A stretch of 64,000 nt of DNA from Bacteroidia bacterium (GTDB lineage Bacteria; Bacteroidota; Bacteroidia; J057): NCBI GenBank assembly GCA_022760475.1, contig JALEFZ010000045.1:62001-126000 (forward strand), in the 5' to 3' direction. Made by a program: the position numbers and the translations under genes. Below the pieces are notes generated by a model. That model was not told the DNA's origin and ran no database searches. It saw only the letters and a list, made by a program, of their open reading frames with translations. Shown here one piece after another: positions 14,987-52,052 of the stretch (position 1 is the stretch's first letter; each line of letters begins with the position of its first letter).

Positions 14987-16288
14987 ATGACCGTTCATTA
15001 TCAACATTCATCAGGTTCTGATTTCCAGATCCATCTGTCCCAGCTTCAAAATCTTTACCATCTGACCCCCTCACAGGCTGTACTACCAGCTTTGAAAAAG
15101 ACCCTGCAAAAACTGATCACACCCGGTTTCTCTTTTTCTTCTGGACACTTGATCTCAGGAGAAGAAGTATCCCCCTTCATTGACTTGATTATTCATTCAA
15201 AAAAGACAAAACCCAAAGAAAAAATAGAAGATTGGGTTGTCATGGACAAACAAGATGTTTGTTGTATTGCTTACCGCTTGGATGAGAGTCAAAAGGAAGC
15301 ATTGGCATATTTTATGGGTGAAAATCCAGGAATGGAAGACCAACAAGTTCTTGAGCTTGATGTGGAAGGCCTCTTGGGGAATGTTTCTGATGACAGTTTA
15401 AATGACCTGATTGCCAAGCTGAACAAGAAGGAGATCGCAATGGGAGTCGTAGCGAATGAGAGAACGTTGGTATTGAACAAAAAAGTAGATCAGGCTAGCA
15501 AGGTATCCACCTCCGTCAACGGCATTGCCATCCCTTACAAGGAGCCTCTAAAAAAGCCTAGCTATACCCAAAATCCAGAACCTGAACAAAGCAGAAGGTT
15601 CAATCCAGGGAATCCAGAAGGACCTGATGGCAATTTCCCAATTCATACTTCCATCATCAAAGATGATTTGCCTGCAGTATCAGAATACCTACAGATGGGA
15701 GGAGATCCTTCCCTCAAAAATAAAAATGGGGATAACCTACTTCATTTGGCAGCCAGGTATAATCACCTGGAAATTGCAGAATTATTATTGATCGGAGAGG
15801 CAGAAGTTAACAGCAGGAATTATGTCTATTGGGCACCTCTGCACATTGCAGCTAAAGATGGCCTTGAAGACATGATGCGCTTATTGATAAAACACGGAGC
15901 TGAATTGGAGGCAAGAAACAACCGTGGAAAGACCCCTCTGCACATTGCTTCTATCCATGGCCGCAGACTGAGTGTCAGCATTTTGCTGGATGCTGGTGCA
16001 GATATACACGCTACCATGGAAAAGGACATGAACCCTCTTCACCTGGCAGCGTGGTATGGACAGTCAGAAATTGCCCTCAGCCTGATAGACCTAGGAGCCG
16101 AGATTGATGCCGTAAATGAGGATGGCAATACTGCCCTCCATTTTGCCGCCTTCAACGGGCAGGTAAGAGTGATCAAAGTTCTGGTAGCCAGTGGCGCGAA
16201 TCCTTCGATTCAAAATAAGTCTGGTGAAACCTATCTGCAAGGTGTAAATGAAGGCTACAGCGGAGAGATGATTCGCGTACTGGATTGA
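14987..16288 (+). CDS. Ankyrin-repeat protein
   Basis: A 433-residue protein without a signal peptide. The first 200 residues match no domain I recognise; they include an acidic LDVEGLLGNVSDDSLNDLIAKL stretch split by short loops. Residues about 217-433 form six full ankyrin repeats of 33 residues plus a partial cap, with the consensus TPLHIAA-GH-E---LLL--GAD (for example KTPLHIASIHGRRLSVSILLDAGADI and NTALHFAAFNGQ). Ankyrin repeats mediate protein-protein contacts. The partner is unknown and no neighbour suggests one. Confidence 0.85.
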   Translation: MTVHYQHSSGSDFQIHLSQLQNLYHLTPSQAVLPALKKTLQKLITPGFSFSSGHLISGEEVSPFIDLIIHSKKTKPKEKIEDWVVMDKQDVCCIAYRLDESQKEALAYFMGENPGMEDQQVLELDVEGLLGNVSDDSLNDLIAKLNKKEIAMGVVANERTLVLNKKVDQASKVSTSVNGIAIPYKEPLKKPSYTQNPEPEQSRRFNPGNPEGPDGNFPIHTSIIKDDLPAVSEYLQMGGDPSLKNKNGDNLLHLAARYNHLEIAELLLIGEAEVNSRNYVYWAPLHIAAKDGLEDMMRLLIKHGAELEARNNRGKTPLHIASIHGRRLSVSILLDAGADIHATMEKDMNPLHLAAWYGQSEIALSLIDLGAEIDAVNEDGNTALHFAAFNGQVRVIKVLVASGANPSIQNKSGETYLQGVNEGYSGEMIRVLD

Positions 16289-48213: not shown

Positions 48214-48247
48214 ATTAGCAAGGTATTATTATTAGCAAGGTATTATT
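48214..48247. repeat. Perfect 17-bp tandem duplication before glnS
   Basis: ATTAGCAAGGTATTATT occurs twice in direct succession (48214-48230 and 48231-48247), ending 5 bases before the glnS ATG. It lies in the probable 5'-UTR. The rest of the 349-bp gap shows no gene. Confidence 0.7.
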
Positions 48248-48252
48248 CAATT

Positions 48253-49944
48253 ATGAGTACAAAGGAAACAACAGCTTCGAAGAACTTCATCGAACACATT
48301 GTCGAGGAAGACCTACGAAATGCCGGGGATGGGTATACCGTCTATACCAGGTTCCCGCCCGAGCCGAATGGCTACCTGCACATCGGGCATGCCAAATCCA
48401 TCGTCCTGAATTTTACCCTTGCTCAACAATTTGGTGGAAAGACTAATCTTCGATTTGATGACACCAACCCTACAAAGGAAAGTACAGAGTTTGTAGAAGC
48501 CATTGAAAGAGACATCAAATGGCTAGGCTTTGACTGGGAAGGCGAGGTGAGATATGCATCCGATTATTATAAACAGCTTTATGACTGGGCAGTAGAACTG
48601 ATAAAAAAGGGGAAGGCTTATGTCGATGATAGTTCTGTAGAAGAAATGCGTGAGATGCGCGGGGTTCCTACCTCTCCAGGACAGGAAAGTCCATACCGTA
48701 GCCGCAGCGTAGAGGAAAATCTGGACTTATTAGAGAAGATGAAAGATGGTGAGTTTGATGAGGGCTCAAGGGTTTTGAGGGCAAAAATAGATATGGCTTC
48801 GCCCAATATGCACATGAGAGATCCGATCATGTACCGCATCCTCAAGACTCCACACCATCGTACTGGCACAAACTGGAACATCTACCCAATGTACGACTGG
48901 GCGCATGGGCAAAGCGATGCATTGGAAGGAATTACCCACTCCATCTGTACACTTGAGTTTGAAGTTCATAGACCGCTCTATAACTGGTTCCTGGATCAAT
49001 TGAGTGATTTTAAGCCCAGACCACAGCAAATCGAATTTGCCAGACTGAACCTTAGCTATACCATTACCTCTAAAAGTAAACTAAGTAGACTTGTAGAGGA
49101 AAACTTTGTAAGCGGCTGGGATGATCCCCGAATGCCAACTATTTCAGGGATGAGGCGTAGAGGCTACACCGCTCTAGCCATCAAGAATTTCGCGACAGGT
49201 GTAGGTATTGCACGTAGGGAAAATGTCATTGACCTCAGCCTTCTGGAATTCTATGTTCGTGAAGATCTGAATAAGGTGGCCTCAAGGGTAATGGGAGTAT
49301 TGAATCCAGTTAAATTGATCATTACCAACTACCCCGAAGATCAGGTGGAAGAAATGGAGATCGAAAACAATCCTGAAGATCCCAATGGAGGCGTCCGTAA
49401 GGTGCCTTTCTCTCGTGAGCTTTGGATTGAAAGAGATGATTTTAAGGAGAATCCCCCTTCTCCCAAAAAATGGTATCGCCTTGGTCCTGAAAGAAAGGCC
49501 AGACTCAAAGGTGCATACATCATTGAGGGGACCGGGTTTAAAAAGAATGAAGAAACAGGGGAGATTGAGGAAATTTACGCAACCTATTTCCCTGAATCCA
49601 GATCAGGTAACGACACATCTGGGATCAAAGTCAAAGGGACCATGCACTGGGTATCTGCCCAACATGCCCTAAAGGTAGAGGTCAGGCAGTACGACAGGTT
49701 GTTTTTGGACCCTGATCCGGCAGGACATAAAGAAAAGGATTACCTCGAATTCCTAAATCCTGAATCCTTAAAAATCATTGAAGAGGCCTATGTGGAGCCT
49801 AGCCTCAAAGAGGCCAGTTCAGAAGATCACTTCCAGTTTATTCGTAAAGGATATTACATAAAGGACGAAGAAGCTTCCGCTGACAAGCTGGTTTTCAACC
49901 AGACGGTAACCCTTCGTGACAACTGGGCCAAGAAGAATTCTTAG
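48253..49944 (+). CDS. glnS: Glutaminyl-tRNA synthetase
   Basis: The ATG at 48253 gives 563 residues (MSTKETTASKNFIEHIVEEDL); an upstream frame from 48115 adds unlikely residues. Class I motifs are HIGH at 43-46 in NGYLHIGHAKSI, preceded by RFPPEPNG, and the KMSKS variant TSKSKLSRLV. The C-terminal anticodon-binding barrel contains SRELWIERDDF and LRNAYII-type strands (ARLKGAYIIEGTGF). It charges tRNA-Gln directly, so this organism need not use the Glu-tRNA amidotransferase route for Gln. It ends at a perfect 10-bp terminator. Confidence 0.96.
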   Translation: MSTKETTASKNFIEHIVEEDLRNAGDGYTVYTRFPPEPNGYLHIGHAKSIVLNFTLAQQFGGKTNLRFDDTNPTKESTEFVEAIERDIKWLGFDWEGEVRYASDYYKQLYDWAVELIKKGKAYVDDSSVEEMREMRGVPTSPGQESPYRSRSVEENLDLLEKMKDGEFDEGSRVLRAKIDMASPNMHMRDPIMYRILKTPHHRTGTNWNIYPMYDWAHGQSDALEGITHSICTLEFEVHRPLYNWFLDQLSDFKPRPQQIEFARLNLSYTITSKSKLSRLVEENFVSGWDDPRMPTISGMRRRGYTALAIKNFATGVGIARRENVIDLSLLEFYVREDLNKVASRVMGVLNPVKLIITNYPEDQVEEMEIENNPEDPNGGVRKVPFSRELWIERDDFKENPPSPKKWYRLGPERKARLKGAYIIEGTGFKKNEETGEIEEIYATYFPESRSGNDTSGIKVKGTMHWVSAQHALKVEVRQYDRLFLDPDPAGHKEKDYLEFLNPESLKIIEEAYVEPSLKEASSEDHFQFIRKGYYIKDEEASADKLVFNQTVTLRDNWAKKNS

Positions 49945-49950
49945 AGGCGG

Positions 49951-49976
49951 AAGGAAGAAAAACTTTCTTCCTTTTG
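49951..49976 (+). terminator. Intrinsic terminator of glnS
   Basis: AAGGAAGAAA (49951-49960), loop AAC, TTTCTTCCTT (49964-49973) and further T form a perfect 10-bp stem. Confidence 0.75.
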
Positions 49977-49992
49977 CTCCCATATTTGCTAT

Positions 49993-50814
49993 TTGATTCT
50001 ATATCCATGCCATTTTACAGAAAGATCTTTTATAGAAAGAGTTCCACGACATAGCGATACCAGAAGAGGAGGTCCAGCCCCTCAAAGAGGTCGAGGTAGA
50101 GGTAGAGGTAGAGGTCGAGGTAGAGGTCGAGGTAGAGGCCGAGGTAGAGGCCGAGGTAGAGGTAGGGCTCAAAGACCAGCTCGACCTCCTGCACATATGG
50201 GTTATGACTCATGGGATGAATTTCAGGAACAAACCAGGCCAATGGCCCGAGCCATTAGGGAGGCTGCATTCAGGGAACATCTTCGGGCTGCAGGACCGGA
50301 CGAACCCTTTGTCGAACCTGTTATTACCCTGGCAGGAAGTTCTGTAACAGGTCATAGGGGAGCAACTACAGGTCCAGAGGGAGATAGGCCTCCTCGACCT
50401 TTTGGTCCCAGGCAAGCAGGAGAAGCCAAAGGAAGTGATTATGACTGGAATGCAGCTCATGAGGCACTGGCTGAAAGGCATATGGGTAGATGGGATGACG
50501 CTAGAGAGAAGCCACGTATAGTCCATGATGATGAAAGTGATGAAAGTGTAAGGGATGTTGTGGATGGCCTTCGAAGGGCTGGAGGAGTACCCGGGGTAGA
50601 TCATAATGTGATGTTTAGTAGAGTTGCTGATGCAGCCCGTAGAAACCATGGGAGGCCTACATTACGGCGATCCAATACTCCTGAAGCCTTTCGCACACCA
50701 GAAGAAAGAGTAAGAAGGCAAGTTATGTTGGAGAGGGAGAGATCTCGTCGACAAGCACAAATAGAAAAAGAAAAAGGCGATGATGAGTGGAAAACTGTGG
50801 TCAGGCGGCGATAA
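49993..50814 (+). CDS. Arg-Gly-repeat (RG-box) basic protein, unknown function
   Basis: The frame is open for 273 codons from a TTG at 49993; no ATG occurs in frame before residue 69, so the true start is uncertain. Residues about 32-58 are 13 consecutive Arg-Gly pairs plus a final Arg, encoded by 81 bases of near-perfect hexanucleotide repeat (50086-50166). The rest is low-complexity and strongly charged (EEFQEQ-type acidic helices, DDESDESVRDVV, a final ERERSRRQAQIEKEKG and VVRRR), without signal peptide or membrane segment. RG/RGG boxes bind RNA in eukaryotes, but no bacterial family is recognised. An overlapping frame starts with ATG at 50007 but stops after 15 codons. Confidence 0.55.
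   Translation: MILYPCHFTERSFIERVPRHSDTRRGGPAPQRGRGRGRGRGRGRGRGRGRGRGRGRGRAQRPARPPAHMGYDSWDEFQEQTRPMARAIREAAFREHLRAAGPDEPFVEPVITLAGSSVTGHRGATTGPEGDRPPRPFGPRQAGEAKGSDYDWNAAHEALAERHMGRWDDAREKPRIVHDDESDESVRDVVDGLRRAGGVPGVDHNVMFSRVADAARRNHGRPTLRRSNTPEAFRTPEERVRRQVMLERERSRRQAQIEKEKGDDEWKTVVRRR
50086..50166 (+). repeat. Hexanucleotide repeat coding for (Arg-Gly)13
   Basis: Alternating AGA or CGA with GGT or GGC codons runs for 81 bases. The codons vary only at the first or third base, which suggests both expansion and later point changes. Length change by 6 bases keeps the reading frame. Confidence 0.85.
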
Positions 50815-50936
50815 GAGAGCGGACTTCCATCCAAACCTTGCTTTAAATTGAAAAATTTGTCTTTCTAGCCTTTATGATTGAGCATTTTTCACCATTAGGT
50901 CATTATTTATTAAATTTGAAGTCTCAATCAATTTAT

Positions 50937-52052
50937 ATGAATAAAATAGCAGCAGTCCTATTAGTGTTTTTCCTATTTGGGAGTTGCAGGTCATCCAAGG
51001 TCGACTTTGAAAATGGAACCAGCAGATCATCCAAGAAGCCCATCAATGTAATTTTTGTAATTGGTGATGGAATGGGACTCACCCAGGTAACTGCCGGGAT
51101 GCTGAACAATTTTAACAAGATTGAGCTGGAAAAATGCACCACCATTGGCCTTATCAAAACTCATGCGGCAGATGACCTGATTACTGACTCAGCTGCTGGA
51201 GCTACTGCATTTGCCACTGGAAAGAAAACCTACCTGGGAGCCATTGGTGTCAACAGTGATACCCTTTCTGTTAAGAATATCTTTGACAAAGCCAAGAAAA
51301 AGGACATGGGAACAGGAGTGGTTGTTACTTCTGAAATTACCCATGCAACCCCTGCTGCATTTTTTGCACATGAAGACTATAGACTTAACTACGAAAATAT
51401 CGCTCAGGATTTCCTCTCCTCAGATATGGATATTGCCATTGGAGGGGGGCTTAAGTATTTCAGGGATCGCAGAGATAAAAAGAATCTCCTTCCTAAGCTG
51501 GAAAAGAAAGGTTATTTGATTAGAAATTGGCAAACCGAATTTCATAAGCTGCAAGTGCCTCAGGATCAAAAATTGATTTACTTCACTGCCCTCGATCAGC
51601 CTAAAAGAAGGTCCAAAGGAAGGGTTTACCTACCCAAAGCCACAGAGTTTGCCATGAATTTTCTACAGGAAAGAAGCAAATCAGGCTTTATGCTCATGGT
51701 TGAAGGATCGCAGATCGACTGGGGTGGCCACGCCAACAATGGCCAATATGTGATAGATGAAATGCTGGATTTCAACGAAACCCTGAAAAAAATCTTTGAC
51801 TTTGCCGAGAAAGATGGCCATACCCTGGTGGTGGTTACAGCAGACCACGAGACAGGAGGCCTAGCCATCAAAAGAGGTTCTGAACTGCACAATCTCAACC
51901 TGAAATTCAGTTCAGGAGGCCATACTGGAACCATGATTCCTGTATTTGCCTATGGGCCAGGGGCAGAATATTTTGGAGGGATCTACGACAACACAGAAAT
52001 ATTCAACAAGATCCAGCAAGCCCTTGGTTGGAAAAAAAATAAGGATCAATAA
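50937..52052 (+). CDS. Alkaline phosphatase, lipoprotein
   Basis: The ATG at 50937 gives a lipoprotein signal (LFGSC, Cys17) that the upstream frame from 50874 would bury. The 371-residue protein has the PhoA-type motifs: GDGMG (metal-binding D44), nucleophile S85 in DSAAGATAFATGKKTY, ITHATPAAFFAH, EGSQIDWGGHANN and ADHETGG. It hydrolyses phosphomonoesters outside the cytoplasm. No Pho-box-like regulator is near. The 447-bp gap that follows holds no recognisable gene. Confidence 0.93.
   Translation: MNKIAAVLLVFFLFGSCRSSKVDFENGTSRSSKKPINVIFVIGDGMGLTQVTAGMLNNFNKIELEKCTTIGLIKTHAADDLITDSAAGATAFATGKKTYLGAIGVNSDTLSVKNIFDKAKKKDMGTGVVVTSEITHATPAAFFAHEDYRLNYENIAQDFLSSDMDIAIGGGLKYFRDRRDKKNLLPKLEKKGYLIRNWQTEFHKLQVPQDQKLIYFTALDQPKRRSKGRVYLPKATEFAMNFLQERSKSGFMLMVEGSQIDWGGHANNGQYVIDEMLDFNETLKKIFDFAEKDGHTLVVVTADHETGGLAIKRGSELHNLNLKFSSGGHTGTMIPVFAYGPGAEYFGGIYDNTEIFNKIQQALGWKKNKDQ

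Follow-up and report, generated by a model that had tools for sequence, protein, structure and literature searches.

The stretch of 64,000 nucleotides that we analysed (the window) contains an orphan open reading frame (ORF) with 13 consecutive Arg-Gly (RG) pairs, which very probably codes for a protein. Our preferred reading, held tentatively and with a probability of about 0.4, is a real, lineage-restricted gene that was gained or has diverged, whose RG tract arose by repeat growth and whose product binds nucleic acids through its charge. The genome comprises 6.86 Mb in 96 contigs. Among the window's genes are a susD-like lipoprotein and parts of SusC-type receptors; together with TAnnTTTG boxes we take these to be marks of Bacteroidota. 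The features needed for the argument are the following.

48253 to 49944, + strand: glnS, the upstream neighbour (Pfam)
49949 to 49971, + strand: terminator-like hairpin after glnS, followed by TTTT
49981 to 49988, + strand: CATATTTG, a weak promoter candidate with one mismatch to the Bacteroidota -7 box TAnnTTTG
49993 to 50814, + strand: the orphan ORF, 273 aa, with a TTG start and the stop TAA at 50812 to 50814
50007 to 50054, + strand: out-of-frame ATG that opens 15 codons (MPFYRKIFYRKSSTT) before a TAG; a rival start, disfavoured by codon-position composition
50086 to 50163, + strand: the RG tract, which places 13 Arg-Gly pairs at residues 32-57 and is an imperfect 6/12-base repeat
50701 to 50808, + strand: charged helix predicted at the C-terminus, about residues 236-272, with a final Arg-Arg-Arg (single-sequence AlphaFold2, pLDDT up to 93)
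50937 to 52052, + strand: alkaline phosphatase gene, the downstream neighbour (Pfam), with its own TAAATTTG box at 50911 to 50918

The frame remains free of stops for 273 codons from the TTG, or for 289 codons if we count from the glnS stop. None of 2000 dinucleotide shuffles matched this open length, neither for the whole ORF nor for the part after the tract, and none of 5000 shuffles was as strongly periodic in G+C over three bases as the part behind the tract. In the codons from 50197 up to the stop, positions 1, 2 and 3 have a G+C of 0.66, 0.52 and 0.32, and synonymous codon choice agrees with host-like preferences. The shuffles and the codon-position G+C support the claim, made earlier from the sequence alone (the sequence-only reading), that this is a real coding frame. 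One could also argue that the ORF is unexpressed, a piece of decaying or foreign DNA that is open by chance. Its orphan status, its unusual composition and the lack of a strong promoter would fit this idea, but 289 stop-free codons after glnS, coding periodicity throughout and tract differences that are exclusively synonymous do not, and we consider it quite unlikely.

Translation confirms exactly 13 uninterrupted RG pairs, as the sequence-only reading had stated; three or more RG dipeptides close together are one feature expected of an RG/RGG-box RNA-binding protein. The tract alone carries a charge of +14. Its units combine AGA or CGA with GGT or GGC; most are AGAGGT and CGAGGT, and there are two GGC variants. 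Tandem Repeats Finder recovers a period of 6 (13.3 copies) and a period of 12 (6.5 copies, 93% matches), of which the latter is the better fit. The proposed hexanucleotide origin of the tract is supported. Under our preferred reading, slippage of 6- and 12-base units or their unequal copying would have lengthened the tract while its reading as RG was kept. All three kinds of difference between units, as well as the last edge of the tract, are synonymous, whereas among random single changes of AGAGGT only 5 of 18 would be. This is modest support, because the units copy each other and the number of independent events is therefore small.

Whether the tract is read as RG can be judged from its flanks. 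The codon-position signature seen after 50197, with position 3 far poorer in G+C than positions 1 and 2, also precedes the tract in frame 0 from 49993 onwards (p = 0.009 and 0.017). Behind the tract, the 11 codons up to 50196, just before the ATG at 50197, show it most strongly (p = 0.0001). In the interval from the glnS stop to the TTG at 49993 it is absent (p = 0.77). A signature on both sides argues for reading the tract as RG and, together with the synonymous unit variants, makes translation as RG most likely. Host codon-usage scores taken alone speak against this, in that they show no preference for the RG frame inside or just before the tract. Within the tract this is expected and uninformative, because the run uses just AGA, CGA, GGT and GGC.

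The same scores become informative, and steadily positive, only from about 50185. Hence, they would be consistent with a real gene of 205 aa that starts at the ATG at 50197 and carries the RG tract as an untranslated simple repeat in its leader, all the more so as comparable hexanucleotide arrays elsewhere often lie outside RG-coding frames. We nevertheless regard this alternative as unlikely. It would leave unexplained the purely synonymous unit differences as well as the codon-position signature that flanks the tract and peaks directly before the proposed start. Furthermore, G+C reaches 57% in the 30 bases preceding this ATG, whereas ten other starts in the window are preceded by 17-43%.

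In total, three start signals compete (TTG 49993, ATG 50007 in the other frame and ATG 50197), and the evidence is split between them: composition points to the first, the spacing of the -7-like box weakly to the second and host codon scores to the third. For ATG 50007 to be the true start, a frameshift (through sequencing error, recent mutation, phase-variable slippage or a programmed event) would have to join its frame to the RG frame. This ATG lies 26 bases past the start of the TAnnTTTG-like box, a spacing equal to that of the downstream phosphatase gene, and the short peptide it would encode (MPFYRKIFYRKS) is likewise basic. But the box has a mismatch, and a TTG -33 element was not found at the proper distance from it. 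The 45 bases shared by the two frames contain 7, 7 and 1 G+C out of 15 at frame-0 positions 1, 2 and 3, so that in the frame of ATG 50007 position 1 would be the poorest in G+C. We think that this explanation is doubtful. Codon-position composition supports translation from the TTG at 49993 as the probable start, although the TTG codon itself and the weakness of the promoter candidate count against our preferred reading. The sequence-only reading had also placed the gene behind a terminator following glnS, and we indeed find the hairpin and TTTT with the ORF directly downstream. Hence, transcription of the ORF probably requires its own promoter or read-through.

Where does this gene come from? 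Its third-position G+C is 0.25 (0.28 after the tract), compared to 0.417 (sd 0.033, n = 45) for the genes of the window, and falls below every one of the 45 genes measured (0.34-0.51). This suggests a foreign origin or an unusual constraint. As G+C is low at the third position but high at the first two, the gene may have been acquired from a differently biased genome or have had an unusual history. Under our preferred reading the gene would probably have been gained from outside, or have diverged past recognition. No mobile-element context was recognised around the ORF, whose surroundings comprise glnS, the alkaline phosphatase and a sigma factor gene, and no known RNAs were found in the window. 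In the glnS neighbourhoods of ten relatives the downstream side is not conserved; hence, an empty site is not visible. Two side observations concern the window and the surroundings of glnS. A perfect 17-base tandem repeat (ATTAGCAAGGTATTATT, two copies, 48214-48247) lies just 5' of the likely glnS start, and an ankyrin-repeat gene adjoins glnS in one relative (G003), while the window has an ankyrin-repeat protein gene at 14987-16288.

The ORF is an orphan in everything that was searched. The protein has no homologue in its own genome, in the 99 nearest relatives, in its order or in an even sample of 395 genomes of the phylum; none of the relatives searched shares its genus. A single weak match among the 99 relatives (E = 0.009) was dismissed, as it overlaps an unrelated gene. 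No relative was found among phages and plasmids, or in genome and viral contigs scanned with short back-translated patterns, which are able to find close relatives only. Pfam and NCBIfam profiles gave nothing at E<=1, and PHROGs gave no family (best E = 0.42, confined to the RG tract). PDB sequences returned weak, chance-like matches only, the best of them to a short stretch of a Cas13d (E = 0.022). Fragments in other frames had no Pfam match above the cut-off, and overprinting of an older gene was rejected. The homologues that the sequence-only reading proposed to look for were thus not found in any of these collections.

Rarity of such tracts was also part of that reading. Of 395 genomes sampled from the class, 3 contain the DNA pattern for eight units. 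In the second of these genomes it lies on the strand opposite the His-Asp tail of trigger factor; in the third it falls in a short frame of 62 codons where an ABC-F-like gene region ends. Hence, ours is the only convincing RG-coding case among the 395 genomes, and the claim of rarity in bacteria holds for RG-coding tracts within the sampled class. The trigger factor gene (L030:23-1579, same class) ends in a long His-Asp repeat, the opposite strand of which reads as an RG tract. For a 12-unit pattern, 200 tract placements were obtained in viral and genome contigs, and the pattern frame was the longest in 38; several of these 38 are Ser-Gly, because the pattern also admits AGC/AGT.

Within its own genome, at least three units occur in two places only, in the ORF and at the start of rpsR, the gene for the ribosomal protein bS18. 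This bS18 (L026:2908-3207; G000:C19:152407-152703) begins MAQGRGRGRGRGRGN, with five RG pairs made from AGA/CGA units as in the ORF tract; the pairs belong to an N-terminal extension (MAQGRGRGRGRGRGNIGPTAVN). No RG extension is present in the bS18 of ten relatives with a readable N-terminus. In members of the Bacteroidia, bS18 contributes to holding the 3' end of the 16S rRNA (PMC9976891). Unlike the ORF product, bS18 belongs to the conserved ribosomal proteins and has its tail as a short addition, and the similarity is limited to RG. It is conceivable, although we think very unlikely, that the ORF is a young gene in which a eukaryote-like RG box evolved independently by hexanucleotide expansion, and that it acts with the RG-tailed bS18 of the same lineage, either at the ribosome or within an RNA condensate.

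The ORF product has a mass of 31 kDa and is basic (pI 11.3), with 37% charged residues and little Leu (2.9%). The single-sequence AlphaFold2 model has a mean pLDDT of 57 and is mostly of low confidence: residues 1-66 are without structure, the RG tract has a pLDDT of about 50-60 and no secondary structure, and helices are predicted at 74-99 and 236-272, the second of them with a pLDDT above 90. Low pLDDT is by itself not proof of disorder, because the model was run on a single sequence, and the single charged helix at 236-272 may be over-predicted. Composition and model confidence are in line with the description of a strongly charged, disordered-looking protein, and under our preferred reading the product would be largely disordered in the cell.

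Judged by composition alone, a nucleic-acid binder is the likeliest reading of the product. According to our preferred reading, the N-terminal RG tract and the C-terminal Arg/Lys-rich helix would bind RNA (or DNA, or ribosomes) via charge. In other proteins, RG tracts act as RNA binders and favour condensation (PMC12502372, PMC4822317); the same holds for disordered inserts in Bacteroides Rho (PMC13269538). With eukaryotic RG/RGG-box proteins (PMC12502372, PMC4822317) the ORF product shares an RG dipeptide run in a basic, disordered-looking stretch, but it has neither homology to them nor a recognised folded RNA-binding domain. With Bacteroides Rho (PMC13269538, PMC10284900) it shares a charged disordered region in a Bacteroidota protein with a proposed RNA role. 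In Rho, however, this region belongs to a conserved enzyme, whereas our product is an orphan throughout and has no enzymatic domain. The genome has no match to PF05185, the PRMT5-type arginine methyltransferase and the one PRMT model used, while control genomes do match. Arginine methylation by PRMTs is common, but not strictly required, for RG/RGG-box proteins in eukaryotes. Hence, judged by the PRMT5 model alone, eukaryote-like methylation is not indicated.

Orphan, fast-evolving genes are often effectors. The sequence-only reading suggested a fast-evolving effector, and this is the sole basis for the idea that our product is secreted or injected as an effector. The protein matches no family, and no secretion, toxin or immunity gene was recognised alongside the ORF, the neighbours of which are housekeeping genes; a mobile-element context is missing as well. 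The suggestion has found no positive support and seems highly improbable to us.

If the ORF is translated and its product binds RNA, it would be a clean case of a bacterial RG box that arose from simple-repeat expansion in a genome where no PRMT5-type enzyme was found. It would then test whether such tails alone confer RNA binding or condensation. As bS18 of this genome has an RG tail too, a common role at the ribosome or with RNA can be put to the test.
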